Shown: positions 1 to 18,125 of the stretch, piece by piece
Numbering within the stretch: position 1 is the first letter of the stretch
Layout: every line of letters begins with the position of its first letter
Assembly (NCBI RefSeq): GCF_006716115.1
Contig: NZ_VFOO01000001.1
Coordinates: forward strand, 2,666,001-2,730,000
DNA length: 64,000 nucleotides
Reading direction: 5' to 3'
Source of the DNA: Subtercola boreus
GTDB lineage: Bacteria > Actinomycetota > Actinomycetes > Actinomycetales > Microbacteriaceae
The notes under the pieces: model-generated
What the model saw: the letters and a program-made list of their open reading frames with translations, nothing else
Told to the model about the DNA's origin: nothing
Databases searched by the model: none
Made by a program: the position numbers and the translations under genes

Positions 1-70
1 CCTGCCGCCAGCCGACCGAGTGCGCCGCCCCCATGAAACCGTGGCCGATCAGGGCCACCCGGAGGGTCAC
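1..70 (-). CDS. Gfo/Idh/MocA-family oxidoreductase, N-terminal fragment (runs off the window)
   Basis: Only the first 23 codons are inside the window. They begin with GTG at 70 and read VTLRVALIGHGFMGAAHSVG, a beta strand followed by the glycine-rich GxGxxG turn that opens the NAD(P)-binding Rossmann fold of Gfo/Idh/MocA dehydrogenases. The GTG overlaps the TGA stop of the upstream beta-subunit gene by four bases, so it is the last visible gene of the deglycosidase operon and probably translationally coupled. In one known C-glycoside pathway (DgpA of the puerarin-degrading strain) an enzyme of this superfamily makes the 3-keto glycoside, so a similar job is possible here. This is inference, because the substrate domain is not visible. 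Confidence 0.7.
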   Translation of the reverse strand, partial: MTLRVALIGHGFMGAAHSVGWRQ

Positions 71-465
71 GCCAGCACCACCTGGCGCTCGACTTCGACG
101 CGGTTGCCGACGTAGCGCATCGGGGCGATCTGCATGTAGAGCAGGCGCAGGGTGAGCACGAGGTCGACGTCGATGCTCGCGCCCGCCTCCGGAACAACGG
201 GCAGCGGGATGATCACCTGCGGTTTGTCGGCGACGAACCAGAGCGTCTCCCACTGATCAGGCAGTTCGGCGATCGAGTACGACGTACCCTGCAGCTCGAA
301 GCGCAGCGACTCCCGCGGAATCTCGACACCGTCGACCGTCGCAGCGACGTCGTCGACACACGAGAGCCAGAGGCTCCGGTACCACGGCAGCTGGATGGAG
401 ACGGCGATGCCCTCGGGATGACGCGCGACGTCAGCCTCGGAGAAGAGGGAGTTGTGGGTTGCCAT
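67..465 (-). CDS. C-glycoside deglycosidase beta-subunit-like protein (DUF6379 type), copy 1
   Basis: This 132-residue protein starts at MATHNSLFSE. The reading frame stays open upstream, but that extension is low-complexity, Pro/Arg-rich and overlaps the alpha gene, so I reject it. The sequence is predicted all-beta, with the recognisable LPWYRSLWLSCV segment near residue 25-40 and LRLLYMQIAP near 105-115. It is paralogous to the first 135 residues of the fused gene at 10280-11755. DUF6379 proteins are the small beta subunits of C-deglycosylation enzymes, which clip the C-C bond of 3-keto C-glycosides together with a TIM-barrel alpha subunit. It lies 7 bases after the stop of the alpha gene at 473-1561, its likely partner. 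The catalytic assignment is by family; the substrate is unknown. Confidence 0.8.
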   Translation of the reverse strand: MATHNSLFSEADVARHPEGIAVSIQLPWYRSLWLSCVDDVAATVDGVEIPRESLRFELQGTSYSIAELPDQWETLWFVADKPQVIIPLPVVPEAGASIDVDLVLTLRLLYMQIAPMRYVGNRVEVERQVVLA

Positions 466-472
466 GGGATCC

Positions 473-1561
473 TCACTCGGCGTTCTGTAGGGCGGCGGCG
501 GCGGTTGCCGGTGCGGTGGATGTCGCGGCAGCCCCGCGAGCGACAGCATTCTCGATCGTGCGGCGCATCAGCGTGTGCTGCTTCTTCACCAGGTCGATCG
601 GGTCGCTCTCGCCGAGGTCGCTGAACGCGTGCCCCTCCCACTCGCTCGAGAGGTAGCCCTGGTACCCGCCCGCGACGAACTGCTCCACGATGCGCGGGAT
701 GTCCATGGCCGGCTCGTCGCCGTTCGCGTCGATGTCGTAGAACTTGGCGTGCACGTGGAAGATCTGCGGCATGATGTCGAGCCACTCCTCCGGCGGCACC
801 AGCCCGTGCATGTTGAAGGCGAGCCGGGTGAAGGGTCCGAGCCGGGCGCCGTCGAAGTTCTCGCTCGCCAGGAAGTCCTCGAACTTCTGGTTGCGCACGT
901 ACATCGGGGTCGGCTCGTGCCAGATCTCGTCCATCACGGGGAAGTACTTCTCGGGCATCCCCATCTGCGACAGCGTGCGGAGCAGCGTCGGCGACAGGCT
1001 GTGCATGGTGGAGGAGAAGTCGGCGGTGAAGCCGAGCCGCTCGCTCTGCAGTTCGTCGTACATCTCGCGCATCTGCAGCACCTGCGGGTCGTTCGGCCCC
1101 GACGGCGCGTGGATCTCGTAGCCGAGCTTCTGGTCGTACTTCTCGGCGAGCGGCAGGAGGCTCCGCAGCAGCTCCTTGCCGTGCGAGCGGATGACGACCT
1201 TCGTGAACCCGAGCTGGTGGGCGGTCTTCAACTGCCGGGCGAGGAAGTCGTGCTCCTCGTCAGGCGACATGTCGCGTTCCTTCCGGCGGCCCATGTCGAG
1301 GTTGGTGCCGATGGCGCTGGGCTCGAGGCCGTAGCGGTCCATGCTGTCCCGCCAGAGACGGATGAAGTCGTCGTCGACGTCCGGGTAGGTGCGGAGCATC
1401 TGGGCGATGTTGAACTCGACGCCCGGGCCGAGGCCCTCGTCGGCTGCCGCCTTGATGAGTGTCTCGGGGGTGTACAACCCAGCCGCGAACTCCGAGGTGA
1501 GCGAATAGAGGGTGATGCCGAGCTTGATGCCCGTTCCGGCGATACCGTTCTCTTCAGTCAT
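473..1561 (-). CDS. C-glycoside deglycosidase alpha-subunit-like TIM barrel, copy 1
   Basis: This 362-residue xylose-isomerase-like TIM barrel starts at MTEENGIAGT (ATG at 1561). The divalent-metal site expected for the fold is visible: Glu149 in YEIHAP, Asp181 in FTADFSS, His271 in HVHAKFYD and Glu307 in SSEWEG. His151, next to the first ligand, is a candidate acid/base residue. It is about 55-60% identical by eye to the alpha half of the fused protein at 10280-11755, including NLDMGRR and FSSTMHSLSPTLLR. Known C-deglycosidase alpha subunits are metal-dependent members of this fold and need a beta subunit, supplied here by the next gene downstream. A plain sugar isomerase/epimerase is the alternative, but the adjacent beta subunit makes that less likely. 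Confidence 0.78.
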   Translation of the reverse strand: MTEENGIAGTGIKLGITLYSLTSEFAAGLYTPETLIKAAADEGLGPGVEFNIAQMLRTYPDVDDDFIRLWRDSMDRYGLEPSAIGTNLDMGRRKERDMSPDEEHDFLARQLKTAHQLGFTKVVIRSHGKELLRSLLPLAEKYDQKLGYEIHAPSGPNDPQVLQMREMYDELQSERLGFTADFSSTMHSLSPTLLRTLSQMGMPEKYFPVMDEIWHEPTPMYVRNQKFEDFLASENFDGARLGPFTRLAFNMHGLVPPEEWLDIMPQIFHVHAKFYDIDANGDEPAMDIPRIVEQFVAGGYQGYLSSEWEGHAFSDLGESDPIDLVKKQHTLMRRTIENAVARGAAATSTAPATAAAALQNAE

Positions 1562-1575
1562 GATGTGGGCGTCTC

Positions 1576-2685
1576 TCAGTTCAGGTGGGGAACGGGCCGC
1601 GCGAGGTGTGCCGCGAGAACGCTGGCAGCCTCCGCCCGGTCGGTGATCATCCTGCTGCCCGCGTTCGAGGCGGCCGAGCGCTGCACCGCCTGTTCGTCGC
1701 GGACGATATCGAAGGGGCTCTGCCAGTGGTTCCAGTGCCACCCCTCGTATTCGCTCGAGATCGCGCCCGAGTAGCCGTTCTCGACGAGCAGCGTCACCAG
1801 CTCGCGCACCGGCACCGACGGTTCCTCGTGGTTCTCGTCGATGCCGAAGAACTTGCCGTGCACGTGGCGCACCCAGGGCAGGATCTCGAGCCAGTCCTCG
1901 ACGCGCGCGGGCCCGAAGAGCCCGGTGCCGTTGATCGCAAAGTCGATGCCGAGCTCGGGCCGGCCGTTCTGGGCGGCGAGGCCGATGAACGATCCGAAGC
2001 GCTGGCCGTGGATCTGCTGGTTCGCGGGCGGACCCTCGGCGTAGTAGCCGTTCCAGAGATCCACCACCGCAGCGAGCAGGTCTTCGGATGCCCCGCGGCG
2101 CCGGTACGCCTCGAGCAGTGACGGCGCGAACCCCGTGACGGTCGCGCCCCAGTCGGCCGTGAACGCCAGGTAGGGCGAGCCGACCTGCTCGTAGCGGTCC
2201 CGGAGGGCGAGGATCCGAGGGTGCGACGCGTACTGGTCGGCATGCACCTCGAGGGCGAGGGTGACGTTGTTCTTCTCGGCGATGGGTGCGAGCTGCTCCA
2301 TCGAATCGGGAGTCAGCGAGATCTGCACGCGGGCGATCGGGAAGCCGAGCTTCGCCGCCGCCTCGATCTGCAACCGCATGTACTCGATCAGTTCGTCCTG
2401 GTTCAGCAAACGGTCGCGGTGGATGCCGATGTCGGCGTTCACCGCGAGCGAGGTCTGCACCAGACCCGCCTCCACGACGAGATCCTTGAACCAGCCGGCG
2501 AAGGAATCCTCGATGGCCGGGAACCCGCGGAAGCTCGAGAACCCGATGATCTCGAGGCCGGGGCCGTAGCCGTCGGCGGCCACCTTGCGGATCAGCGCTT
2601 CGAGGTCGTACTCGCGCTGGTGCGAGGCCCGCGTGAAGCTGTAGAGGGTCACACCCTGGATAGGGGTGCCGAGAGTCTCGGTCAT
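1576..2685 (-). CDS. C-glycoside deglycosidase alpha-subunit-like TIM barrel, copy 2
   Basis: This is a 369-residue protein from ATG at 2685. The start overlaps the TGA of the upstream beta gene as ATGA, which suggests coupled synthesis of an alpha-beta pair. The fold is again xylose-isomerase-like, with metal ligands Glu146 (LEVHAD), Asp178 (FTADWGA), His276 (HVHGKFFG) and Glu312 (SSEYEG). It diverges from copy 1 outside these motifs; for example it lacks the STMHS loop and has TVTGFAPSLL instead. Two copies in one operon therefore probably differ in substrate or bond preference. It lies between beta copy 2 and alpha copy 1, which starts 14 bases downstream. Confidence 0.75.
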   Translation of the reverse strand: MTETLGTPIQGVTLYSFTRASHQREYDLEALIRKVAADGYGPGLEIIGFSSFRGFPAIEDSFAGWFKDLVVEAGLVQTSLAVNADIGIHRDRLLNQDELIEYMRLQIEAAAKLGFPIARVQISLTPDSMEQLAPIAEKNNVTLALEVHADQYASHPRILALRDRYEQVGSPYLAFTADWGATVTGFAPSLLEAYRRRGASEDLLAAVVDLWNGYYAEGPPANQQIHGQRFGSFIGLAAQNGRPELGIDFAINGTGLFGPARVEDWLEILPWVRHVHGKFFGIDENHEEPSVPVRELVTLLVENGYSGAISSEYEGWHWNHWQSPFDIVRDEQAVQRSAASNAGSRMITDRAEAASVLAAHLARPVPHLN

Positions 2686-3080
2686 GCGTTCACAGCCTTC
2701 ATGGTCTTGGTGTCGTGCTCTTCGATGTGCAGCACTTCGTTGTCGGAGATGACGATGTAGGGGATGTAGAGCGTCAGGTCGACGTCGACCGTGTGCTCGC
2801 CGTCGCCCGCAGCCAACGGCACCTCGCCGGAGAGCACGGCCGAGTCGAGCGGGAACCACCACTCGTCGGTGTTGGTGCGGAGCTCGTCGAACGTGAACTC
2901 CGTGCCGTTCATCTCCCAGCGGAGCGTCTCGGGGGCGGCCGGGATGCCGTCGATCGACAGTTTCGCCCCGGCGATGCAGGAGCCGGGCAGCGCCCGGTAC
3001 CACGGAATGCGTACCTCGACCGCGCTCCGCGATCCGTTCGTCGTGAGCGTGCCCTGTTCGATGATGCGATCGGGGATCAT
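2682..3080 (-). CDS. C-glycoside deglycosidase beta-subunit-like protein (DUF6379 type), copy 2
   Basis: This is a 132-residue, beta-rich protein with the family segment VRIPWYRALPGSC near residues 24-37 and VDLTLYIPYIVI near 105-116. A strong Shine-Dalgarno sequence (AAGGAGGT) sits six bases before the ATG at 3080. It is the first gene of the downstream half of the long operon (beta2, alpha2, alpha1, beta1, Gfo). Only 50 bases separate it from the GMC oxidoreductase gene, and that gap together with the GMC 3' end carries the palindrome shared with two other promoters of the island. It most likely forms a complex with the alpha subunit whose ATG overlaps its stop codon. Confidence 0.78.
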   Translation of the reverse strand: MIPDRIIEQGTLTTNGSRSAVEVRIPWYRALPGSCIAGAKLSIDGIPAAPETLRWEMNGTEFTFDELRTNTDEWWFPLDSAVLSGEVPLAAGDGEHTVDVDLTLYIPYIVISDNEVLHIEEHDTKTMKAVNA

Positions 3081-3120
3081 GAGAACCTCCTTGTTCGTCT
3101 TCTTCTGAATTCTAACACTC

Positions 3121-3141
3121 TAATGTCGGTTTAAGACATAA
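3121..3141. promoter_or_regulatory. Operator copy 1 of the C-glycoside island (TAATGTC-N7-GACATAA)
   Basis: Two 7-base arms, TAATGTC at 3121-3127 and GACATAA at 3135-3141, form an inverted repeat matching at 6 of 7 positions with a 7-base spacer. The same arm sequence and spacing recur at 9150-9170 and 13164-13184, each upstream of a gene of the same pathway. Here it lies 41-61 bases before the beta2 start codon and overlaps the last codons of the GMC gene, so it may drive or control an internal promoter. The local LysR protein is the obvious candidate binder; this is inference. Confidence 0.6.
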
Positions 3142-4693
3142 GTTGCGAAGCAATATGGCGCGCGCCCCGCACGGCGAGCGCCACGCTGGTCAGCGTCGGG
3201 TTGCACGCCGTCGCCGTGGGAATGACGCCGTTGCCGGCGACGTGCAGCCCGGGTGCTCCCCACACCGCACTGTTCGTGTCGCACACGCTCGTGCCGTCGT
3301 CGACGAGACCCATGCGCGTGGTCCCCTGGTAGTGCAGCGACGACCCGAGCGGCAGGCGGAACGGGCGGTCGTTGAGCAACTCGCCCACGGCACGGCCGAG
3401 CACGACAATGCGGTCGGAGGCGCGCGCGAAGGTCTCGTGGTCCTTCTCCGTCAGGGTGTACCGGATGCTCGGGGCCGGCATCCCGTTGTCGTCGAGGTTG
3501 CCCTCGCTGAACTCGACCCGGTCCGAGGCCTGCAGGTCTTTGGCGCAGAAGAGTCCTAGCCCGACGATCGAGCCCGGCGTCACCGGGTCGTCCTCCGCCA
3601 GCGGCACCGGCGAGGCATCCAGCTGCATCACCTGCCCGTGGAAGGGCTGCGCGTCGGTGTAGGGCACCCAGGTCACCCCGCTGTATTCACTGAGGCCCGT
3701 GGAGGAGGCGCCGTGGCCGGCATCGAGCCCCTCCACACCGCGGAGCCGCGCCGCGAAGACGATCTGCGCCTGGTCGTTCAAATATCGCCCGAGCGCCTCG
3801 GGCCTGATCCCGGATGCCCAGAGGAGCTGCGGCGTTCGGAGGGCGTCGCCCGCGACGACCACGAAGCGCGCGGCGACCTCGGTCGTCTCGCCGGTGCGGA
3901 GGTCGCGCACCGCGATGCCGCGCGCACCGTCCCCGCGAGCACCGTCCCCGCCGGCGGCGCCCTCGGCGCCGTCCCCGCCTCGGAGCACGCGCGTCACGAG
4001 CGCCTCGGGGTACAGCGCGAAGTCGGGATTGTTCGTCGCCGCCTCACCGAGCACCACGTCGGAGCCCGACCACACCAGGTTGCCGTCGTCCCGGCGGTGC
4101 GCGGCCAGAGGCATCCGCTGCACCCGTTCGCCAGGCGCCCGGCCCTCGTCGACCACTGCGGCGAGACGGTCCCGCACGATCTCCGCGAACGGCGAGCCGT
4201 CGAACGCATCCGTGGTGACTCCGAGGAGTCTCGCCGCCTCGCCGAGCAGCTCGTCGAGGTCGGGGAGGAAGGTGATGCGCTCGCTGCCGCGCGGGGTCGG
4301 GCATGCCCCCGTCCAGTGCGCGGACATGCCGCCCACGTTGGTGGACATGGCGGCGACGGGCAGCCCGTCCTCACCCTCGGCCTGGAAACCGGTCTCGAGC
4401 AGGTGGGTGCCGGGGCGCCCACTCCGCTGCCCCGAGGTCACCGCGCCGGGGGAACTGATCGTCGAAGCGCCGGCACTCGAACCCTGCGACGCCCGCTGGG
4501 CACGTGCCCGGGCATCCGGGTCGGCGATGTTCTTGACGTGCGCCCCGGGAGGATCGGAGACGATCGGCCCGGCCTCGAACAGGGCGATGCGGGCACCGGG
4601 CGCCGATTCACTGAGGATACGCGCGTAGGCCGCACCCGTGGGTCCGCTGCCCACGATGGCGACGTCGACCGACGCCGGAAAGCGGCCGCTCAT
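3131..4693 (-). CDS. GMC/pyranose-oxidase-like FAD oxidoreductase, probable C-glycoside 3-oxidase
   Basis: This is a 520-residue GMC-superfamily flavoprotein. The FAD-binding GSGPTG turn is at residues 15-20. NVGGMSAHWTGACPTP (about 119-134) resembles the pyranose 2-oxidase region whose His carries FAD (here His126). The C-terminal catalytic pair appears as His454 in LHYQGTTRMG and Asn498 in CNPTLT. FAD-dependent enzymes of this type (CarA group) oxidise the 3-hydroxyl of C-glycosides to the 3-keto form that the alpha/beta deglycosidase requires, and the gene lies directly upstream of two such pairs. Start ATG at 4693 overlaps the previous stop as ATGA; the frame is open further upstream but only as a shadow of the neighbouring gene. 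Residues about 230-255 contain a Gly/Ala/Asp-rich insertion. Cytoplasmic; no signal peptide seen. Confidence 0.8.
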   Translation of the reverse strand: MSGRFPASVDVAIVGSGPTGAAYARILSESAPGARIALFEAGPIVSDPPGAHVKNIADPDARARAQRASQGSSAGASTISSPGAVTSGQRSGRPGTHLLETGFQAEGEDGLPVAAMSTNVGGMSAHWTGACPTPRGSERITFLPDLDELLGEAARLLGVTTDAFDGSPFAEIVRDRLAAVVDEGRAPGERVQRMPLAAHRRDDGNLVWSGSDVVLGEAATNNPDFALYPEALVTRVLRGGDGAEGAAGGDGARGDGARGIAVRDLRTGETTEVAARFVVVAGDALRTPQLLWASGIRPEALGRYLNDQAQIVFAARLRGVEGLDAGHGASSTGLSEYSGVTWVPYTDAQPFHGQVMQLDASPVPLAEDDPVTPGSIVGLGLFCAKDLQASDRVEFSEGNLDDNGMPAPSIRYTLTEKDHETFARASDRIVVLGRAVGELLNDRPFRLPLGSSLHYQGTTRMGLVDDGTSVCDTNSAVWGAPGLHVAGNGVIPTATACNPTLTSVALAVRGARHIASQLMS

Positions 4694-5484
4694 GCGTCGC
4701 CGGCCAGCCCGCGGATGAACGCCGTCGAGGCGACCGTCTCCTGGGTGGGGTAGTACTCGAGCCCGATCGGGCCGTCGTACCCCGAGGCCCGCAGGTCGCC
4801 GAGGCGCGCGGGCCAGTCGATCGAACCCGATCCGGGCTCTCCGCGGCCCGGAGCATCGGCGATCTGCACGTACTTCACTGTGTCCCCCGCCTCGGCCAGG
4901 GCGGCAGCCGCCGTCTCCCCCTCGACGGTCGAGTGGTAGAGGTCGTAGAGGATGCCGAACTGCGGCGAGTCGACGCCGCGAGCGACATACGCCGCCTCGG
5001 CGGTGCGGTCGAGCAGGGAACCGGGATGATCGACCCGCACGTTCACGGCCTCGAGCACCAGCGTGATACCCGATCCCTCGATCTGGGCGATCGCGCGCGT
5101 GTAGATGTCGATGAGCTTGTCGAGCTGCACCTGGCGTTTGCTGCCGCCGAAACCGGTGCCGCTGCCGACGACGAGACGCGGGCAGCCGAGCTGCTGCGCG
5201 ATGGCCACACCCTCGTCGAGGTGGTCGAAGAACGGGCTGTCGTCGAACGGCGGGATCATGAACTGGGTGCGCGGCTCGGAGAGCTGGGCGGTCAGCTGCA
5301 GCCCGGTCTCCTCGAGGGCGGCTTTCAGCGCGGGTACGTCCTTCGGCTTCGAGGGCGCATCGATGCCGGTCGGGCCCCACATCTCCACCGCGGTGAACCC
5401 GGCGGAAGCGGCTGCCCGCACACGGTCGTGGTACTCGGCCTCTTCGGTGAAGAGCAGCTCGATGTTCGGGGCAAGTTGGTACAC
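4690..5484 (-). CDS. Hydroxypyruvate isomerase-like TIM barrel (sugar product processing)
   Basis: This is a 264-residue protein of the Hyi/xylose-isomerase-like group. It starts at GTG 5484 behind a good Shine-Dalgarno (AGGAGAC, 7-base spacing). The signature KYVQIADAPGRGEPGSG with a metal-binding Gln instead of His is typical of hydroxypyruvate isomerase relatives; LEAVNVRVDHPG, ILYDLYH and GLEYYPT supply the other expected ligands. It sits between the SnoaL-like gene and the GMC oxidase in one operon. A role in rearranging the keto-sugar released by C-C cleavage is a reasonable inference. Its Gln-type metal site is useful for comparison with the fused protein at 11811-13115. Confidence 0.7.
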   Translation of the reverse strand: MYQLAPNIELLFTEEAEYHDRVRAAASAGFTAVEMWGPTGIDAPSKPKDVPALKAALEETGLQLTAQLSEPRTQFMIPPFDDSPFFDHLDEGVAIAQQLGCPRLVVGSGTGFGGSKRQVQLDKLIDIYTRAIAQIEGSGITLVLEAVNVRVDHPGSLLDRTAEAAYVARGVDSPQFGILYDLYHSTVEGETAAAALAEAGDTVKYVQIADAPGRGEPGSGSIDWPARLGDLRASGYDGPIGLEYYPTQETVASTAFIRGLAGDA

Positions 5485-5543
5485 AGAAGTCTCCTAGTGG
5501 TGGGGGGTGTGCAGAGAGGTCGAGCAGAGAAGAGAGGGGCAGG

Positions 5544-5915
5544 TCAGAACATCGGATGCGCGCTGACCGGAGATTCGGGAACAGCCTGCAGAACGTCCCA
5601 GTGCTCGACGATCCGCCCATTCTCGAAGCGGTAGATGTCGGCCACGGCCGTGTCGGCGCGGTCCGGCCCGGATGCCCGCACATGCACCATCGCGAGATCG
5701 CCGTCGACGATGATGCGCTGGATGTCGAAGCGGGAGTCGGGCGACCCGTCGAACTTGGGCGTCAGGCCGACGATCGCCGGTTCCGGCCCGTCGGGCAGCC
5801 CCGGGTTGTGCTGGATGTAGTCGGGCGAGACGAGGAAGTCGAACGCCGCCCGCACGCGCTTCTGCGTGTAGAACAGGTCGCAGAACGTCTCGAAGGCCGA
5901 ACGATTGTCGCGCAT
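5544..5915 (-). CDS. SnoaL-like / NTF2-fold small protein
   Basis: This 123-residue protein has the alpha+beta-cone pattern of SnoaL-like proteins: an N-terminal helix (SAFETFCDLFYTQKRVRAAF), the YIQHNPGLPDGP segment and a C-terminal sheet ending in DIYRFENGRIVEHWDVLQAV. The IQHNP and EHWDV motifs are characteristic of the group with predicted enol/ketone chemistry (SnoaL-type aldol cyclases and isomerases). It starts 4 bases after the stop of the permease gene. Placed between transporter and hydroxypyruvate-isomerase-like genes, it may tautomerise or dehydrate the unsaturated keto-sugar produced by deglycosylation. That function is inferred only. Confidence 0.65.
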   Translation of the reverse strand: MRDNRSAFETFCDLFYTQKRVRAAFDFLVSPDYIQHNPGLPDGPEPAIVGLTPKFDGSPDSRFDIQRIIVDGDLAMVHVRASGPDRADTAVADIYRFENGRIVEHWDVLQAVPESPVSAHPMF

Positions 5916-5919
5916 CCGC

Positions 5920-6756
5920 TCAGCCCTTCAGCCCGCCGGCGAAGCCCTGGATGAAGCGCTTCTGGGCGAAGAGGTAGAAGGCGAGGATCGGGATCATCGA
6001 GACGATCACGATCGCGAAGATCACGTTCCACTTCGACACCAGCGACCCGATGAAGTAGTACATCGACACCGGCAGGGTCTGGTTGGCCGAGCCGCCGAGG
6101 AAGATCAGCGCGGTGAAGAAGTCGTTCCAGACGATCAGGCCGCAGAGGATCGCCACCGTTCCGGTGGCCGGGGCGAGCAGCGGGAACACGATGCGGAAGA
6201 AGACCTGCCAGCGGCTCGCCCCATCGATCGAGGCGGCCTCCTCGTACTCCGTGCCGAGGCCCCGGAGGAACCCCGCGTAGAGGAAGATCGCGAGCGGCAG
6301 AAGCATGCCGGTGTAGAGGAAGATCATCCCCCAGACCGAGCCGGTGAGGCCGATCGTGCGGGCACCGATGTAGAGCGGCACAGCACCGAGCTGGGCGGGA
6401 AGCACGATCGCGATGAGGAAGAGGTAGTAGGTGGCCTTCCCCCAGCGCCTCGTGCTGCGGGCGATGACGTAGCCGGTGAGCGACCCGAGAATGATGAGGC
6501 CGAAGATGCTGCCGGCCGTGATGATGATGCTGTTCATGAGACCGAGGAGGATGTTCGACTGCCCGGACGCCACGAACAGGGAACTGAAGTTGTTGAACGT
6601 GGGGTTCACGGGCAGGGCGAGCGACGACGTCGTGTAGACCTCTGCGTCGGGCTTCAGCGCCATGGTGATCAGGAAGTAGAACGGCAGGAGGAAGACGATC
6701 GCGAGGATCCAGACACCGATCTCGCGGATCAGGCTGCCGGAGGTGTACCGGAACAT
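5920..6756 (-). CDS. Carbohydrate ABC transporter permease (MalG/CUT1 type)
   Basis: This is a 278-residue inner-membrane permease with six predicted transmembrane helices. The ABC-coupling EAA loop is EEAASIDGASRWQVFFRIVFPLL near residue 180-200. It starts at ATG 6756, just one base after the MalF-type permease stop. With the other permease and the lipoprotein it forms a CUT1 sugar importer; no ATPase is encoded alongside, as is usual for actinobacteria that share one MsiK-like ATPase. Operon position implies import of the glycoside or of its sugar. Confidence 0.88.
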   Translation of the reverse strand: MFRYTSGSLIREIGVWILAIVFLLPFYFLITMALKPDAEVYTTSSLALPVNPTFNNFSSLFVASGQSNILLGLMNSIIITAGSIFGLIILGSLTGYVIARSTRRWGKATYYLFLIAIVLPAQLGAVPLYIGARTIGLTGSVWGMIFLYTGMLLPLAIFLYAGFLRGLGTEYEEAASIDGASRWQVFFRIVFPLLAPATGTVAILCGLIVWNDFFTALIFLGGSANQTLPVSMYYFIGSLVSKWNVIFAIVIVSMIPILAFYLFAQKRFIQGFAGGLKG

Positions 6757-6757
6757 G

Positions 6758-7720
6758 TCAGCTCTCCGTTCCGCGCGTGACGCGCTGTTGGATGACGGCG
6801 AACACCAGGATGATCGCCGAGAGGATGAGGGCCAGGGCGGCTCCGTAGCCGAAGTTCGCGAGCGAGAAGGCCTGCTTGTAGACCTGCGTCGCGAGGGTCT
6901 CCGTCGCACCCGCCGGACCGCCGTTGGTGAGGGCCATGATCTGGTCGAAGACCCTCAACCCGTTCACGATGCCGAGTGTGGTCGAGATGGCGACGGCGGG
7001 GCGGATGGCCGGCAGTGTGACGTGCCAGAACCGCTGCCAGAGGGTGGTGCCGTCGATCGCGGCGGCCTCCTCCACCTCGGTCGGAACGCCGGCCAGGCCG
7101 GCCAGGTAGATCACCATCGCGAAGCCGGTCTGCTGCCAGACGATGACGATGAGCACGGCCCAGATCGCGAAGGTCGGGTCGCCGAGCCAGCTCTTCTGCC
7201 ACGACTCCAGGCCCGCCGACTTCAGGATCGCGTTGATCGGACCGTTGAAGTCGAAGATGAACTTCCAGATGTATGAGACGGCCAGTGGGCTCAGCACCAC
7301 CGGCATGAAGAACAGCACCCGGAGGATGTAACGGCTCTTCAGCGTGCGGTTCAGGGCCAGCGCGATGGCGAGCCCGATGATGTTGACGATGACGACCGAC
7401 CCGAAGGCCAGGAAGAGCGTGTTCCCGAGCGCCAGGATCTTCGAGGGATCCCCGAGGATCTTCTGGAAGTTCGCGAGCCCCACCAGCTGGAACGAGCCGA
7501 TGCCCGTCCAGTTGGTGAAGGCGAAGAAGCCGCCCACGCCCGTGGCGACGTAGTGGATGGCAAGCACGACCAGCACTCCGGGGAGCGCCCACCACCAGTG
7601 GCCGAAGCCGACCACGCCCCGCGACCGCCGGGAACGGGTCTTCCGATCCGGTCCCGGCGTGCGGTGGTGCGGCCCCGCCACGGTGTTCGCTTCGGTGTCT
7701 GAGTGCATCGTTGCAGTCAT
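6758..7720 (-). CDS. Carbohydrate ABC transporter permease (MalF/CUT1 type)
   Basis: This is a 320-residue permease with a basic cytoplasmic N-terminus (about residues 1-40), six predicted membrane helices and the EAA loop EEAAAIDGTTLWQRFWHVTLP near 220-240. It pairs with the MalG-type permease immediately downstream. It starts at ATG 7720; the 60 bases to the binding-protein gene upstream show no convincing terminator, so one transcript from the lipoprotein gene is likely. Confidence 0.88.
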   Translation of the reverse strand: MTATMHSDTEANTVAGPHHRTPGPDRKTRSRRSRGVVGFGHWWWALPGVLVVLAIHYVATGVGGFFAFTNWTGIGSFQLVGLANFQKILGDPSKILALGNTLFLAFGSVVIVNIIGLAIALALNRTLKSRYILRVLFFMPVVLSPLAVSYIWKFIFDFNGPINAILKSAGLESWQKSWLGDPTFAIWAVLIVIVWQQTGFAMVIYLAGLAGVPTEVEEAAAIDGTTLWQRFWHVTLPAIRPAVAISTTLGIVNGLRVFDQIMALTNGGPAGATETLATQVYKQAFSLANFGYGAALALILSAIILVFAVIQQRVTRGTES

Positions 7721-7780
7721 TGCTTACCCATCGGTTGTTCGAGTGTGGCGCGGCTTCGTCGGTGTTCCTTGGCCCGGGAG

Positions 7781-9076
7781 TTACTGGTCCCAGGCGGCAT
7801 CCATCGACGCGAGCACGCTGTCGATGGTGGTCTGGCCGGTCAGCAGACCCTGCACTCCGGTTCCGAGTGCATCGTAGACCGACGAGTTCGGCCAGCCCGT
7901 GTTCGGGAAGGCGACGTACGAGCCGCTCTTGACGATGTCGGACACCGGTGCGTAGTTCGTGCCGGAGAGGTCGAGGTCGGCCAGACCGGTCACCGGGAGC
8001 GAGCCCTGGGCATCGGCGAAGGTCTTGGACTGGGCGGGCTCTGCCATCCAGTCGAGGAACTTCTTCGCCGCATCCTTGTTCTTCGAGCTCGCGTTCAGCG
8101 ACAGCGAGTAGTTGGCGCTGGCCAGGCCGAAGGCCTTGTCGCTCGACGTCGCCGGCGGGAAGGCCTCGACCGTGTAGGTGTTGCCGGCGGCGGCCTTCGC
8201 CAGGTCAGCGGCGGATCCACTCGGCCCGAACATGGTGAGCGTCGTGCCGGTGGTGATGCCGTTCGTGATGGCGTCGAAGCCGGCACCCTCGGCACCGCTC
8301 TGGAAGCAGCCCGCATCCTTCATGTCGATGATGGCCTGGAGGGTGTCCTTCCAGCCCTGGGTTCCCGCGAAGGTGGTCTTCTTGTCGGTGCGATCCTGGT
8401 TCCAGGTCGGGTCTTCGGCGTAGACGCGGGTCGCCGCGATCGAGGAGGCCGTCGCACCCGTGTTGGGTCCGGCTGCGCCGGCGAGCACGAACATCGACTT
8501 CCCACCGCTTGCGGCGACGCTCTTGCAGTCGGCGAGAACGCCCGTGAAGTCGGTCGGGAAACTGGTGATGCCTGCTGCCGTGGCTGCGGTCTGGTTCAGG
8601 ATGTTGCCGACGAACGAGATGCTGAGGGCCTGGCCGTAGGTCTTGCCATCGATCTGGAACAGGCTCTCGTTGCCGCTCGGGATGAGGGCGGTCGCGCTGT
8701 CGTCGAGCGGCTCGAGGAAGCCCGCCTTCGCAAGGGTGATGATGCCCTGGCCTGCGCCGCTGCCGGGCTGGCTCTCGATGACATCGGATCCGTTGCCCGC
8801 CTGGAACTGCGTGCTCGTGGTCTGGCTGAAGGAGTCGTTGGGCACCGCGTTCAGGGTGATGGTGACGCCCGGGGTCGCGGCCATATAGGCCTTGGCAAGG
8901 GTCTCGAACGGGCTCTCGACGCCGGTGGAGACGGCGTAGGAGAGGGAGAACGACTGGGAGCCGTCGGAGCTGGAACCGGAGGTGCCGGAGCAGCCGGAGA
9001 GAACGAGGGCGCTGACGGCGAGGGGGGCGGCGAACAGGCCGATCCGTCTGGCGTGAGAGCGACGGTGCTGTGTCAT
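7781..9076 (-). CDS. Sugar ABC transporter substrate-binding lipoprotein (CUT1)
   Basis: This 431-residue extracytoplasmic solute-binding protein of the family-1 type has a signal peptide and lipobox LVLSGC placing the lipid-anchored Cys at residue 29. The mature part has the Ser/Gly-rich linker followed by FSLSYAVSTGVESPFETLAKAY, typical of CUT1 binding proteins. ATG 9076 is preceded by an AAAGG Shine-Dalgarno. It is the first gene of a run of same-strand genes extending to the window start, and its promoter region carries the island palindrome at 9150-9170. It probably recognises a glycoside; the ligand cannot be read from the sequence. Confidence 0.87.
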   Translation of the reverse strand: MTQHRRSHARRIGLFAAPLAVSALVLSGCSGTSGSSSDGSQSFSLSYAVSTGVESPFETLAKAYMAATPGVTITLNAVPNDSFSQTTSTQFQAGNGSDVIESQPGSGAGQGIITLAKAGFLEPLDDSATALIPSGNESLFQIDGKTYGQALSISFVGNILNQTAATAAGITSFPTDFTGVLADCKSVAASGGKSMFVLAGAAGPNTGATASSIAATRVYAEDPTWNQDRTDKKTTFAGTQGWKDTLQAIIDMKDAGCFQSGAEGAGFDAITNGITTGTTLTMFGPSGSAADLAKAAAGNTYTVEAFPPATSSDKAFGLASANYSLSLNASSKNKDAAKKFLDWMAEPAQSKTFADAQGSLPVTGLADLDLSGTNYAPVSDIVKSGSYVAFPNTGWPNSSVYDALGTGVQGLLTGQTTIDSVLASMDAAWDQ

Positions 9077-9149
9077 GAGGAGCCTTTCTGACTTCGTTGT
9101 CGGGTGCACGATCGCTGCGCAACCGGGCTATTGCCTCAGTATCACAGGG

Positions 9150-9170
9150 ATGTGTCGAAAATGCACATAA
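9150..9170. promoter_or_regulatory. Operator copy 2 of the C-glycoside island (ATGTGTC-N7-CACATAA)
   Basis: Arms ATGTGTC at 9150-9156 and CACATAA at 9164-9170 have the same 7-base spacing as the copies near 3130 and 13174. It lies 74-94 bases upstream of the binding-lipoprotein start and on the other side faces the LysR gene, so it could serve both directions. An extra half-site GACATAA is present at 9186-9192. Assignment to the LysR protein is inferred from proximity. Confidence 0.6.
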
Positions 9171-9296
9171 GTCTTCGCTATGCCCGACATAACCCGACGG
9201 CGGCCCGCGCTATCTGAAAGGCCGATGAGAACCGCGCCGCACATCACCGTCATTGATAGAGTTTCTGCACACCTGTCTGCGAAGGAACACAACGAC

Positions 9297-10238
9297 GTGC
9301 CTGACCCTTCTCCCCTCTCCCGCCTCGACCTGAACCTCCTGGTCTCCCTCGATGCGTTGCTGACGGAACGCAGCGTGACGCGCGCCGCGGAGCGCCTGCA
9401 CCTGAGCCAGCCGGCCCTCAGCGCTTCGCTCTCGCGCCTGCGGCTGCACTTCAACGACCCGATCCTGGCGCGGCGCGGAAATGCCTACGAGCTGACGCCG
9501 CTCGCCCTCCGGCTCATCGACCACACGTCGACCACCCTGGAGTCGGCGCGGCGGGTCTTCGAGAGCCAGGCCACCTGGGCACCGACGGAATCCGTGCGGG
9601 AGTTCTCGATCTACGGCTCGGACTACGGCTTCGTCACCATCGGCAAGGTGGTCTCCGAGCTCGCCGCCGACCGGGCACCGGGCGTGCGGTTCCGCTTCAT
9701 GCTGCACAACCCCACGATCGTCGAAGACGCGGCCAACCGGCTGCGCGCCGTCGACGGGATGGTCATCCCGCACGGCCATGTGACCGACCTGCCGTTCGCC
9801 GATCTCTGGCACGACAACTGGACCGCGATCGTCGCCGAGTCGAATGACCAGATCGGCGACGAACTGACGATGGCAGAGATGGACTCGATGCCGTGGGTGA
9901 TGACCTTCCAGTCCCGCTCCGCCTACACCTCCGCCGCGCGCCAGGTGCAGCAGCTGGGGGTCGAGCCCACCATCGCGGTGGTGGTCGAGAGTTTCCTCTC
10001 GATGCCTCACTTCATCGCCGGCACGAACAGGGTCGGCCTCATCCAGTCCGCGCTCGCCCCGCTGGTTCTGAAATCGGGCGGCGTCCGCGCCGTCGCGCTG
10101 CCGTTCGAAGCGACACCCCTCGTGAACGCCCTGTGGTGGCATCCGGCCCACAGCACCGACCCCGAGCATGCCTGGATGCGCGCCCTATTCGTCGAGGCAG
10201 GTCGCATCGTCGAGCAGGGCGCGCACCACGCGGAGTAG
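9297..10238 (+). CDS. LysR-family transcriptional regulator of the C-glycoside island
   Basis: This is a 313-residue LysR-type regulator. The N-terminal winged helix-turn-helix is LNLLVSLDALLTERSVTRAAERLHLSQPALSASLSRLR-like (about residues 10-60), followed by a periplasmic-binding-like effector domain of the NahR/NodD type (RREFSIYGSDYGF-like strand at about 100). I chose GTG 9297 because GAAGGA lies 9 bases before it; in-frame ATGs at 9180 and 9225 would add a poorly conserved extension. It is transcribed away from the transporter/deglycosidase operon, and a palindrome shared with two other promoters lies in between. The likely inducer is a glycoside or aglycone (inference). Confidence 0.82.
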   Translation: MPDPSPLSRLDLNLLVSLDALLTERSVTRAAERLHLSQPALSASLSRLRLHFNDPILARRGNAYELTPLALRLIDHTSTTLESARRVFESQATWAPTESVREFSIYGSDYGFVTIGKVVSELAADRAPGVRFRFMLHNPTIVEDAANRLRAVDGMVIPHGHVTDLPFADLWHDNWTAIVAESNDQIGDELTMAEMDSMPWVMTFQSRSAYTSAARQVQQLGVEPTIAVVVESFLSMPHFIAGTNRVGLIQSALAPLVLKSGGVRAVALPFEATPLVNALWWHPAHSTDPEHAWMRALFVEAGRIVEQGAHHAE

Positions 10239-10247
10239 GCCCGCCGC

Positions 10248-10267
10248 GCGGTGTCACGGGTCACCGC
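10248..10267. terminator. Possible bidirectional stem-loop between convergent genes
   Basis: GCGGTG (10248-10253) and CACCGC (10262-10267) form a perfect 6-base stem with an 8-base loop in the 41-base gap between the converging LysR and fused deglycosidase genes. There is no T-run, so this is a weak, intrinsic-like candidate. Confidence 0.3.
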
Positions 10268-10279
10268 AGGGCGACCGGC

Positions 10280-11755
10280 TCAGGCCGGCTGCAGCGACCG
10301 CATCGTGCGCCGGATGAGGTCGTGCTGGCGGCGCACCAGCAGCAGGGGGTCGACCTCGCCGATCTCGGCGAAGGCGTGGCCCTCCCACTCGCTCGACCAG
10401 TAGCCGCGGTAGCCACCCTCGACGAACACTCGAACGAGTTCCGGGTAGTCGATCGCGGGCTCGTTGCCGTTCTCGTCGATGTCGTAGAACTTGGCGTGCA
10501 CGTGCATGATCTGCGGCATGATGTCCGACCATTCGGTCGGGGCGACATGGCCGTGCATGTTGAACGCCAGGTGCGCGAACGATCCGAGGCGCCCCGGGTC
10601 GAAGTCGCGGCTCTTCAGGTAGCCGATGAACTCCTGCTGGCGCTCCCGCATCGAAGCGTCGGTGGCCCAGATGGCCTGCAGCCGGTCACGCCCCTCCGCG
10701 TCGACGCCCGCACGTTCGACGGCCCGCAGGAGGGTGGGTGACATGCTGTGCATCGTCGACGAGAAGTCGGCCACGAACCCGAGCAGGGGCGAGTCGAGTT
10801 CGGCATAGACATCCCGTACCTTCAGGATCTCGGGCGCGTTCGGCCCCATCGGCGCGTGGATCTCGTAGGCCAGCTTCAGCTCGAGCTCCTCGGCGATGGG
10901 CAGCAGTCGGCGGAGGAGGTCGGGCTTCGCGCTCTGGATGCGCACCAGCGGGAAGCCGAGCCGCTTCGCTCCGCGGAAGAGCGTCTCGCTGAACTCGAAC
11001 TCCTCGTCGGGCGTCATGTCGCGGTCGCGGCGGCGGCCCATGTCGAGGTTCGCGCCGAAGGAGCTCTCGTCGAACCCGTGCTTGTCGAAGGCCGTGCGCC
11101 AGGTGCGCACGAAGTCGTCTGAGACGGCCGGGTACGTCGGCAGCACCTGCGAGGCGACGATCTCGATGCCCGGGCCGATGCCGAGTTCGGCGACCCGGTC
11201 GAGCAGTCCCTCGAAGTCGAACCAGCCGGCACGGAACTCGGCGCTGGCCGAGTACAGCGTGAGACCGAGCTTGAACGGGTCGTCCTCGGTCGCGGGCGGC
11301 GGCGGAGTCACATCGGAGACGAGGGCGGGGTGGGGTGCATCCGTCTCCCGCACCTCGAGCTCGAGGCTCTGCCGCACGACGTTCGGCACGTACATGCCGG
11401 GCCCGCCGGCGTCGCCCGGGGCGATCTGCATGTACGGCAGCCGCAGTTCGCCGAAGACGGTGATCTCGTGGCTCTCGCCGAGGGCGAGGGGATGATCGTC
11501 CCGCACGACCAGCAGGGGATGCTGTTGCAGGTACCAGAGCACCTCGCTCTGTGCGGGGAGGTCGGCGACGGCGAAGCGAGTGCCGTCGAGCTCCAGGCTG
11601 AGGTCGGCCTCGGGGATGTCGCGGCCGTCGATGCTCACGCGGAGGGTCGAGACGGACGACAGCCAGAGGCTCCGGTACCAGGGGATCGTGAGGGAGAGCG
11701 CGAACCCCTCGGGGTGGGTGCGCAGGCTGGCGTCGTCGATGAGGCCGTTGGGCAT
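10280..11755 (-). CDS. Single-chain (beta-alpha fused) C-glycoside deglycosidase-like protein, copy 1
   Basis: This 491-residue protein joins two domains that are separate genes at 67-1561. Residues 1-135 are a DUF6379 beta domain (LTIPWYRSLWLSSV, LRLPYMQIAP). Residues 138-159 are a Pro/Thr/Glu-rich linker (VTPPPPATEDDP). Residues 160-491 are the metal-dependent TIM barrel with Glu298/His300 (YEIHAP), Asp330 (FVADFSS), His420 (HVHAKFYD) and Glu456 (SSEWEG). Both halves are paralogous to beta1 and alpha1, so all expected active-site residues are retained. ATG 11755 has an AGGAG Shine-Dalgarno at 6-base spacing. It lies 55 bases behind the second fused gene, probably in one operon. Characterised C-deglycosidases that I know of are two-subunit; a one-chain form is unusual. 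Confidence 0.8.
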   Translation of the reverse strand: MPNGLIDDASLRTHPEGFALSLTIPWYRSLWLSSVSTLRVSIDGRDIPEADLSLELDGTRFAVADLPAQSEVLWYLQQHPLLVVRDDHPLALGESHEITVFGELRLPYMQIAPGDAGGPGMYVPNVVRQSLELEVRETDAPHPALVSDVTPPPPATEDDPFKLGLTLYSASAEFRAGWFDFEGLLDRVAELGIGPGIEIVASQVLPTYPAVSDDFVRTWRTAFDKHGFDESSFGANLDMGRRRDRDMTPDEEFEFSETLFRGAKRLGFPLVRIQSAKPDLLRRLLPIAEELELKLAYEIHAPMGPNAPEILKVRDVYAELDSPLLGFVADFSSTMHSMSPTLLRAVERAGVDAEGRDRLQAIWATDASMRERQQEFIGYLKSRDFDPGRLGSFAHLAFNMHGHVAPTEWSDIMPQIMHVHAKFYDIDENGNEPAIDYPELVRVFVEGGYRGYWSSEWEGHAFAEIGEVDPLLLVRRQHDLIRRTMRSLQPA

Positions 11756-11810
11756 GGTCGTTCTCCTGGTTCGGTCGGGGTGGGCGAGTGTCGGGTCGTC
11801 GGCGGGGGGG

Positions 11811-13115
11811 CTAGTCGAGCGTGTCGGTGATGCTGCGGATCAGCGAGTGCTGGCGGCGCACCTGCTCGATCGAACGCCAGGGCTCGCGAACGCCCTCGTA
11901 CTCGCTCGAGAGGTAACCGGTGTAGCCGGAATCCTTCAGCGACTGCAGAACGGGGCGCCACGGAATCTGCTGGTCTTCGAGGTTCTCGTCGATGTCGTGG
12001 AACTTCGCTTGCACGAAGACGACGTACTCCGCGACATCCGCGAAGTCCGCCGGGTCCACGCCGATGCCGTCGAGGAACGCCGGGCGGGTCTCGCGCGTCT
12101 CGCCGGGGCCGAGCGGGATGGGCCGGTCCTGGAAGATGCCGGTGTCGATCAGCAGCCCGAAGTGTTTCGTCCCGGTGCGCTGGATGAGACCGATGTAGTC
12201 GTCGACGACCGGGTGCCGGATCGGGGTCGGGGAGTGGATCTCGGGGCAGATGATCACGTCGAGATCGTGCGCGAGGTCGAGGGAGCGTTCGACCGACTCG
12301 GTCCAGATCGGGTCGGGAACGAGGTCGCCCGACACGACACCGATCTTGGGTCGCACGAAGCGGAAGCCGAGCCCCTTCGCGAGGCGGAGGTCGCGCTGCA
12401 GGGTCGCCGCACCCTCTTCGGCGGTCATCGCGCGGGCGTGCGGCCCGCTTGAGTGCAGCCGGGTGTCGATCCACGAGCCGTAGTTCGTCGGTTCGAGGCG
12501 GTACTTCTCGAGCAGGCGGAACCACTCGTCGCGCCAGGCGGTGCTCGGCTCGGGGTAGTTCGCGACATGCCCCTCACCGAGGATCTCGACGCCTGTCGCA
12601 CCGACGTCGGCTACCGCGGCGAGCGCCGTCTCGAGGTCGAGCACGGTGCCGTAGTCGCCCATGAAACTGTAGAGCGAGACACCGTACTGGAACGGAGCGC
12701 CACCGCCATCCGGTGCCAGCGTGACGTGCTTCGTGACCCGGTAGACCGAGGGCTGGTGCTCCTCGGGCACGTACGACATGCGGAGGCGCAGTTCGATCGA
12801 CACCTCGTGCACGCCCTGCGGCAGTCCGCCCTCGAACGGCACGGTGACGACGGCGGCATCCTCGAGCTGCCAGCGGAGTCCGTCACTCTGCCAGAGCTCT
12901 TCGAGCGTGTGGGTGCGGCCGCCCAGTGTCCAGAGCGGCACGTCGGCGGGAACGTCGACGAGGCCCGGGATCCTGATCGCAACCCCGTCGACGAGCGACG
13001 CCGCCATGCCCCGGTAGGAGGGCATCCGGAGTCTCAGCTGGAAGCCGGTGATGCGATCGCCGTCGCGAACGTTCCGAAATCCGACGGACTGGATCAGGTC
13101 TCTCTCGAGAAGCAT
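11811..13115 (-). CDS. Single-chain (beta-alpha fused) C-glycoside deglycosidase-like protein, copy 2, divergent
   Basis: This 434-residue fusion has a beta-like domain at residues 1-135 (LRLRMPSYRGMAASLVDG, ELRLRMSYVPEEHQ) and a TIM barrel at 142-434. Unlike copy 1 there is almost no linker, only a short Gly-rich turn near 136-140. Metal-site candidates are Glu292 (CPEIHSP), Asp324 (LLIDTG), Gln369 (VFVQAKFHD) and Glu405 (SSEYEG). The His ligand seen in the other three alpha domains is Gln here, as in the hydroxypyruvate-isomerase-like neighbour. It may therefore be a divergent deglycosidase, or an enzyme acting on the released sugar. The start ATG 13115 has only a weak Shine-Dalgarno (AGAGAG). 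The promoter region carries the island palindrome, shared with the divergent SDR gene. Confidence 0.72.
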   Translation of the reverse strand: MLLERDLIQSVGFRNVRDGDRITGFQLRLRMPSYRGMAASLVDGVAIRIPGLVDVPADVPLWTLGGRTHTLEELWQSDGLRWQLEDAAVVTVPFEGGLPQGVHEVSIELRLRMSYVPEEHQPSVYRVTKHVTLAPDGGGAPFQYGVSLYSFMGDYGTVLDLETALAAVADVGATGVEILGEGHVANYPEPSTAWRDEWFRLLEKYRLEPTNYGSWIDTRLHSSGPHARAMTAEEGAATLQRDLRLAKGLGFRFVRPKIGVVSGDLVPDPIWTESVERSLDLAHDLDVIICPEIHSPTPIRHPVVDDYIGLIQRTGTKHFGLLIDTGIFQDRPIPLGPGETRETRPAFLDGIGVDPADFADVAEYVVFVQAKFHDIDENLEDQQIPWRPVLQSLKDSGYTGYLSSEYEGVREPWRSIEQVRRQHSLIRSITDTLD

Positions 13116-14038: not shown

Positions 14039-14458
14039 TCAGCGTGCTGCGGGCGGCGGTTCGGTCTCGGCGAAGACGCCGCTCGCGATGCGGAAGGCCG
14101 TGTTGGCCGCGGGCACGCCCGAATAGATGGCGGACTGCAGGATGACCTCACCGATCTCCTCGACCGTCAGGCCGTTGCGGAGGGCCGCCCGCAGGTGCAT
14201 CGCGAGTTCCTCCTGGTGGCCGTGGGCGATGAGCGAGCTGAGCACGGCGATCGACCGCGAGCGACGGTCGAGGCCGGGCCGCGACCAGACGTCGCCCCAG
14301 GCGACACGGGTGATGAAGTCCTGCCAGTCGGCGGTCAGCGGGGTGGTCGCCGCGGTGGCGCGGTCGACGTGAGCGTCGGAGAGCACCGCGCGGCGCACGG
14401 CCATGCCCTGCTCGAAGCGTTCGGCGTCGGTGAGTCCGTCGCCCTGGGGACGCGTCAT
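14039..14458 (-). CDS. pcaC: 4-carboxymuconolactone decarboxylase
   Basis: This 139-residue protein has the length and motifs of PcaC: LDRRSRSIAVLSSLIAHGHQEELAMHLRAALRNG near the middle and EVILQSAIYSGVPAANTAF toward the end. It decarboxylates 4-carboxymuconolactone to beta-ketoadipate enol-lactone. It is last in the pcaHGBDC run; its ATG at 14458 overlaps the pcaD stop as ATGA, indicating coupling. Here pcaC and pcaD are separate genes, not the pcaL fusion common in some actinobacteria. Confidence 0.92.
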   Translation of the reverse strand: MTRPQGDGLTDAERFEQGMAVRRAVLSDAHVDRATAATTPLTADWQDFITRVAWGDVWSRPGLDRRSRSIAVLSSLIAHGHQEELAMHLRAALRNGLTVEEIGEVILQSAIYSGVPAANTAFRIASGVFAETEPPPAAR

Positions 14459-15273
14459 GAGGATGCTCCTTCGGAGTGCGGTCGCGCGGCGTGTCGGTCG
14501 AAGAGCCCGATGAGCGCCGCAGCGGTGGTGCCGGGCTGTTCGGCGGGCGGCAGGTGGGCTGCTCCTTCGATCACAGCGCTCTGCCCGTGTGCAACGCCCT
14601 CGGCGATCTCGACCGCCTTCGGCTCGGGCGCGACCGCATCGTGTCGGCCCCACAGCGCGAGAACCGGAGCCGTCACGGCGCCGAGCTCTGCCCGCACGTC
14701 GTAGGCGGCGAGCGCTTCGCAGCAGAGGGCGTACGATTCGTCGTCGGCGTCCTGCAGAGCATGCAGGAGCCGGCCGGTGAGGTCAGGGTGCGCGGCCATC
14801 GACCCCTCGGCGAACCAGCGCTCGGCCGAGGCGATGAGGATGCTCGACGTGCTCTCGGCGCGCACCTTCGCGGCCCTCTCCCGCCACGCCAGCGGCTCGC
14901 CGAGCTGCGCTCCCGAGGCGATGATGGCGGCGGCACGCACCCTGCTGCCGTGCCGCAGCAGCAGTTCGAGGCCGGTTGCGCCGCCGAGCGAGACGCCGGC
15001 GTAGAGGAAGGGTTCGCCGTCGACGGTCCCCTCGATGGCATCGACGGCTGCCGCGACCGCGTCGGCGAGCTCGGCCACGGTGAACGGATCGGTCGCGGCC
15101 GGTGCCGCCCCGTGCCCGGGCAGGTCCCAGGCGAGCAGCCGGTAGCGCTCCCGCAGAAGAGGCGCGCACGTCTCCCAGAGGATGGTCGAGGTGCCGAGCG
15201 ACGGCCCGAGCACGAGCAAAGGCAGGTCGCGGCCGCCGCCCCACTCGCGGAGGGCCAGGGTGGGTGTCGTCAT
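14455..15273 (-). CDS. pcaD: 3-oxoadipate enol-lactonase
   Basis: This is a 272-residue alpha/beta hydrolase. The nucleophile elbow GVSLGG is near residue 92, the oxyanion region is LLVLGPSLGTSTILWE near the N-terminus, and the acid and His are in LWGRHDAVAP and GAAHLPPAEQP. The position between pcaB and pcaC supports enol-lactone hydrolysis to beta-ketoadipate. Start ATG 15273 overlaps the pcaB stop by four bases; the open frame beyond it is a shadow of pcaB. Confidence 0.9.
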   Translation of the reverse strand: MTTPTLALREWGGGRDLPLLVLGPSLGTSTILWETCAPLLRERYRLLAWDLPGHGAAPAATDPFTVAELADAVAAAVDAIEGTVDGEPFLYAGVSLGGATGLELLLRHGSRVRAAAIIASGAQLGEPLAWRERAAKVRAESTSSILIASAERWFAEGSMAAHPDLTGRLLHALQDADDESYALCCEALAAYDVRAELGAVTAPVLALWGRHDAVAPEPKAVEIAEGVAHGQSAVIEGAAHLPPAEQPGTTAAALIGLFDRHAARPHSEGASS

Positions 15274-17199: not shown

Positions 17200-17201
17200 C
17201 G

Positions 17202-18011: not shown

Positions 18012-18080
18012 AGTGTCTCCTTCGACGGGCGGAACGGCGTGCATCCATTCTCGGACACCGTGCCGCGGGCGAGCGATGCG

Positions 18081-18097
18081 CTCCCGATGAATGGGAA
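18081..18097. promoter_or_regulatory. IclR-type operator in the pcaH-iclR intergenic region
   Basis: CTCCCGATGAATGGGAA is an imperfect palindrome centred at 18089. It matches at 13 of 17 positions the near-perfect palindrome before pobA (18885-18901). It sits between the divergent pcaH and iclR genes, where an IclR protein would regulate both its own gene and the pca operon. Confidence 0.6.
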
Positions 18098-18125
18098 AAA
18101 CGATCGATCCGTGGCAGCATGGAGC

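Follow-up and report, generated by a model that had tools for sequence, protein, structure and literature searches.

Within a 64,000-nucleotide stretch of the Subtercola boreus genome (contig NZ_VFOO01000001.1, C1:2666001-2730000; hereafter the window), positions 67-13115 hold four sets of C-glycoside deglycosidase (CGD) alpha and beta subunits, two as split pairs (67-1561 and 1576-3080, sets I and II) and two as single-chain fusions (10280-11755 and 11811-13115, sets III and IV), beside a sugar ATP-binding cassette (ABC) transporter and a flavin adenine dinucleotide (FAD)-dependent oxidase. A fifth set lies just left of the window, so that the four sets counted in the original prediction have to be corrected to five. 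We consider it very probable that these genes form an island for C-glycoside catabolism, of the same kind as Car, Pur and PsG3Ox, in which an oxidase would feed position-specific lyases and the released sugar would then be hydrated and reduced. The five sets represent paralogue groups that recur across genera, and the fifth differs from the others in its catalytic residues.

All open reading frames (ORFs) named for the region are intact at their expected positions, with the CGD, oxidase and transporter genes on the minus strand. The pairs and fusions proposed earlier were borne out by profile and PDB matches, as were the neighbouring transporter and pyranose-oxidase-like oxidase (Table 1). In particular, all four small domains belong to Pfam CGDB (PF19906, the C-glycoside deglycosidase beta subunit, also called DUF6379 in several PDB chains of the family), scoring 55-108 bits where the cut-off is 27.6, and the TIM-barrel parts match AP_endonuc_2. 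Every part of the four sets matched known CGD chains when compared with the PDB using phmmer, and in both fusions the beta domain comes first and the alpha domain second within one ORF. Searching the whole 4.2 Mb genome with the CGDB profile returned five places at E ≤0.001, all within ∼19 kb, which excludes a chance arrangement. That such alpha/beta complexes would cleave the C-C bond of 3-keto-C-glycosides, as had been suggested, is well supported by homology, with alpha1 sharing 83% identity with AgCGD2 and fusion B resembling 8QRZ.

The active-site residues are in line with this assignment. All four window sets have the catalytic pair, His149 and Glu307, as do 275 out of 275 alpha subunits of groups I-IV (two of these being solved references). 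The metal ligands E147, D179, H269, K271 and E305 are complete in sets I-III; set IV has four of the five, with Gln in place of His at 269, and the solved 8QRZ likewise has Gln. In group II, Glu307 follows His149 at a distance of 166 residues in 23/23 sequences, as compared to 158 in AgCGD2 and group I. Fusion A retains Tyr17, Asn248 and Met249 of AgCGD2 and carries Gln instead of Arg123, and the fusion B alignment shows a gap at the position of the AgCGD2 lid domain as well as a match of 195 bits to DfgA (7bvs_A). Two comparisons of close relatives gave ratios of nonsynonymous to synonymous substitution rates (dN/dS) of 0.04-0.09 for the alphas of sets I-IV. The window oxidase is nearer to 7QF8 and 7DVE than to fungal pyranose 2-oxidases, the Pyranose 2-oxidase entries listed scoring only ∼79-104 bits. 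We take 7qf8 to be PsG3Ox and 7dve to be a CarA, although the PDB listing names them otherwise.

Globally, five paralogue groups were found across genera, and 17 out of 27 genomes carry all five: I (AgCGD2 type, C8), II (MiCGD type, mainly C6), III (fusion A), IV (fusion B, Microbacterium testaceum/EuCGD type) and V. The alpha tree behind these groups leaves out 43 identical copies, 2 short pieces and, by subtraction, 11 alphas running off a locus start; one ORF of locus L117 with an empty alpha stretch was set aside, set V of genome G233 and some alphas of G367 lie in ORF pieces outside the tree, and named loci were assigned to groups by their best BLAST match to the labelled tree. Recent local duplication was rejected as an origin of the four sets, as the tree joins each of them with counterparts in other genera and not with its neighbours. 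Nor is the array special to this island or unique to the S. boreus genome: CGDB was detected in 26 of 398 sampled genomes of the family, 20 of them with at least four places, and many Microbacteriaceae as well as Arthrobacter globiformis and Pseudarthrobacter siccitolerans share the island. Fusion, too, is a known, structurally solved form. We rejected the possibility that the fusions are annotation or frame artefacts, given their single uninterrupted ORFs, the solved structure and the fused state of 47/49 group III and 36/46 group IV homologues (8QRZ itself among the 36). Beta-alpha fusion is a recurrent evolutionary state and no new mechanism.

The neighbouring genes were followed in related loci, defined as the best 80 of 100 relatives with 10 kb flanks, where sets III and IV fall near the flank edge and their absence means little. 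The oxidase was present in 77 of these 80 loci (≥45% identity over at least half of the query), the isomerase-like TIM barrel (4690..5484) in 76, the two permeases (5920..6756 and 6758..7720) in 72 and 68, respectively, the LysR regulator in 51 and the SnoaL-like protein in 21. For the solute-binding protein, the count was 57 at ≥45% identity and 70 at 30%.

Set V lies at C1:2659994-2661386, 4.6-6.0 kb to the left of where the window begins, within the stretch L006 (12994-14386), which together with L165 covers the DNA further left. Its own beta5 fails the CGDB cut-off, which the set V betas of some relatives pass (28-33 bits). In all 66 set V homologues His149 is replaced by Gln and Glu307 by Gly, and all five metal ligands are kept; the beta partner is retained and is fused to alpha in 21 of the 66. 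Within group V we counted nine fusion-state changes (the total of 11 over all groups minus one each for III and IV), a number that depends on a fast tree. The dN/dS of set V, 0.23-0.27, exceeds that of sets I-IV by a factor of ∼2.6 to 6.5 and still indicates purifying selection. Together with the intact metal sites, this led us to reject a decaying pseudogene. In an order-wide sample that scored at most five candidates per genome, all five genomes with set V also carried other CGDs. In genome G233, set V is split over two ORF pieces (G233:C1:2173805-2175228, L053). Set V has thus lost the eliminase His/Glu pair and kept the metal site, and its role, on related substrates, is probably a different one.

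There is a serious chance, if somewhat below even, that set V is a non-catalytic paralogue, acting as a sensor or partner subunit and not as an enzyme with new chemistry. Such a role would fit the double substitution and the faster evolution, and single alanine substitutions at the His149 and Glu307 positions leave PuCGD with 10.4% and 49.8% and MiCGD with 1.8% and 1.9% of activity, respectively (PMC8563793). However, one would hardly expect a dead copy to preserve an intact metal site across genera, and both the persisting purifying selection and the kept, sometimes fused, beta partner speak against this reading. Rather less probable, and offered tentatively, is a diverted deglycosidase: set V might bind 3-keto-C-glycosides with the aid of its beta subunit, without elimination, and use the metal site and its glutamates for a different reaction on that keto-sugar. 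By analogy with YcjR, a related 3-keto-glucoside 4-epimerase, it might for example epimerise an unusual C-linked sugar so that the sibling lyases can cut it. If true, the natural His/Glu loss would have divided a single family into members that isomerise sugars and members that cleave C-C bonds. In either case, set V offers a natural test of the role of the metal site without the catalytic pair.

For the island as a whole, we infer substrates and step order from characterised relatives, the proposed scheme being drawn from PMC8563793, PMC12724307, PMC10646112 and PMC10628242. The ABC transporter would import the glycoside, and a broad FAD oxidase would convert its sugar to the 3-ketone. Metal-dependent alpha/beta lyases would then split the sugar-aryl C-C bond in a beta-elimination-like step, with His149 taking the C2'' proton, and the lyase would be selected by glycosyl position and aglycone, with set I acting on C8 and set II mainly on C6 glycosides and set IV following the M. 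testaceum/EuCGD architecture. In sets III and IV, the beta-alpha fusion would hold both halves of one active site together. Finally, the released glycal would be hydrated and reduced by the adjoining TIM-barrel and Gfo/Idh proteins. The order of oxidation, elimination, hydration and reduction follows PMC10628242, and the frequency of Gfo (73/80) and of the second TIM protein (68/80) in related loci agrees with it. Directly downstream of beta1 lie this Gfo/Idh/MocA oxidoreductase, which is levoglucosan-dehydrogenase-like (360 bits against a cut-off of 650), and the second AP_endonuc_2 protein.

Several points weigh against this reading. The substrate preferences rest on relatives: the suggested C6/C8 division is supported for sets I and II by way of their assayed relatives (PMC8563793), and the assayed enzymes include none close to set III. 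The NG motif of set II at 248/249 depends on the alignment (N/G in one, G/L in another), and the four-residue beta-loop insertion of C6 enzymes was not clearly visible by eye in beta2. An AlphaFold model of fusion A fits AgCGD2 domain by domain and does not fit 8QRZ as one body (root-mean-square deviation of 15 Å over 377 residues). Furthermore, a second GMC 3-oxidase-like gene is present on the extreme left of the island (C1:2646345-2647964, L165:16345-17964; pyranose oxidase profile 169.7 bits, below the cut-off, as is the window oxidase with 199.7 bits), so that the picture of one oxidase serving every set is simplified.

The paralogues could instead be largely redundant, forming a gene-dosage or broad-coverage array of overlapping specificity. 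CGDs indeed tolerate varied aglycones (PMC8563793), 16/80 loci showed only sets I and II (with the reservation about the flank edge given above), and 4/27 genomes had only II or only IV. We nevertheless regard redundancy as unlikely, because the five groups are separate and co-occur, each keeps its own residues and architecture (such as the missing lid domain of IV and the His-Glu spacings of I and II), and the relatives of set I and of set II that have been assayed do not share the same C8/C6 preference (PMC8563793). Very improbable, in turn, is that 3-keto O-glycosides or other glycosides, and not C-glycosides, are the main substrates of some sets: PuCGE and a sequence-unrelated enzyme do eliminate 3-keto O-glucosides (PMC10628242) and PurA oxidises some O-glycosides that then break down without a lyase (PMC12724307), but precisely this spontaneous deglycosylation of the tested 3-keto O-glycosides (PMC12724307) would make a dedicated lyase array hard to explain, and, among assayed enzymes, those nearest to sets I and II act on C-glycosides.

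Position-specific C-glycoside cleavage, the reading we prefer, can be compared with several known systems. Set I corresponds to AgCGD2 (AgCarB2-C2 of A. globiformis, PDB 7DNM/7DNN) in sequence and residues, and the donor strain has the same island. As alpha1 of A. globiformis NBRC 12137 and 7dnm_A share 100% identity across 337 residues, group I is AgCGD2. This strain is the source of the assayed AgCGD2 (C8) and AgCGD1 (C6), and AgCGD2 took only the C8 compound 2 (Mori et al., PMC8563793). Fusion A, in contrast, is a single chain that shares only 58% of the AgCGD2 alpha sequence (437 bits for alpha, 93 bits for beta). Set II resembles MiCGD/CarBC in its split genes and equal His-Glu spacing, a likeness judged by the spacing of the mutated residues (H147A and E313A in MiCGD, hence 166; PMC8563793); AgCGD1 and MtCGD were placed in set II by exclusion within their own loci (L144 and L103). 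Fusion B agrees with the M. testaceum C-glucosyl deglycosidase (8QRZ/8UN2), a single beta-alpha chain over its full length (433 residues) with Gln at 269 and 78% alpha identity, and EuCGD also lacks the lid domain. The PsG3Ox cluster of P. siccitolerans, a glycoside 3-oxidase beside two CGD pairs, represents the same island; its published description names four CGD proteins (PMC10646112), and sets III-V are in the locus as well. In Paenarthrobacter sp. No. 37, PurABC is alike in combining a broad FAD oxidase with a narrow, heterodimeric, C8-specific lyase and differs in that one lyase set is described (PMC12724307).

Two CGD pairs beside a glycoside 3-oxidase (in P. siccitolerans) and a solved single-chain CGD are already known; the four sets alone are of a known kind, and set V makes the system a variant. 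In the portions of the literature available to us, we found no description of the five-group array, the repeated fusion or the Gln/Gly set, and sets III, IV and V did not appear in the available published accounts of A. globiformis and P. siccitolerans, though both genomes carry them. The full set often comprises five conserved paralogues. C-glycoside deglycosylation determines what becomes of many flavonoids, xanthones and dyes from plants, both in soil and in the gut, and CGDs are sought as biocatalysts. The island supplies natural single-chain forms of an otherwise two-subunit enzyme and a ready comparison of C6/C8 specificity.

Table 1. Features of the island; positions refer to the window unless prefixed with L006
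Feature	Position	Strand	Evidence
beta1, set I (AgCGD2beta type, CGDB/DUF6379)	67..465	-	Pfam CGDB 56.7 bits; 237 bits to 7dnm_B AgCarC2
alpha1, set I (AgCGD2alpha type, predicted C8-glycoside CGD)	473..1561	-	657 bits to 7dnm_A; 83% identity
alpha2, set II (MiCGD type, predicted C6)	1576..2685	-	184 bits to 7dnm_A; His149-Glu307 spacing
beta2, set II	2682..3080	-	4-base overlap with alpha2; Pfam CGDB 59.7 bits
FAD glycoside 3-oxidase (GMC family, CarA/PsG3Ox type), putative first oxidative step	3131..4693	-	7qf8 756 bits, 7dve 738 bits
AP_endonuc_2 TIM barrel (hydroxypyruvate-isomerase-like)	4690..5484	-	candidate for hydration/isomerisation of released keto-sugar, by analogy with AtHYD (PMC10628242)
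SnoaL-like small protein, accessory	5544..5915	-	Pfam match
ABC transporter permease	5920..6756	-	Pfam BPD_transp_1 60.5 bits
ABC transporter permease	6758..7720	-	Pfam BPD_transp_1 79 bits
ABC solute-binding protein	7781..9109	-	Pfam SBP_bac_1 88.3 bits
LysR-type regulator, divergent from transporter/oxidase/CGD operon	9180..10238	+	Pfam HTH_1 and LysR_substrate
fusion A (set III), single-chain beta-alpha CGD, 491 amino acids	10280..11755	-	CGDB 55 bits; AP_endonuc_2 33.7 bits
fusion B (set IV), single-chain beta-alpha CGD, 434 amino acids	11811..13115	-	CGDB 107.8 bits; 779 bits over 1-433 to 8qrz_A
beta5, set V	L006:12994-13404	+	CGDB 22.1 bits, under cut-off 27.6
alpha5, set V	L006:13394-14386, from ATG at 13394	+	106 bits to AgCGD2 alpha

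A ROK regulator adjoins set V. Further left, L006:970-9633 holds an MFS transporter, an SDR, two FAA hydrolase-like ORFs, an amidohydrolase, an FAD monooxygenase, a cyclase and an extradiol-dioxygenase-like protein, which likely constitute an aglycone pathway; the extradiol-dioxygenase-like gene is present in 10/80 related loci. On the other side, genes of the protocatechuate branch adjoin the island at window positions 14039-18878, with PcaC, PcaG and PcaH profiles above and PcaD, PcaB and PcaR-type profiles below their cut-offs, and may degrade aromatic products of the island.

A congener carries a sixth, outlying CGD set on a separate contig (G003:C4:4665-6181, L020). Sets of the island, with alpha2 82-83% identical, were also present on contigs titled Stenotrophomonas maltophilia P13 (L109) and Planococcus sp. 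APC 4015 (L086), for which contamination or mislabelling is more likely than transfer.

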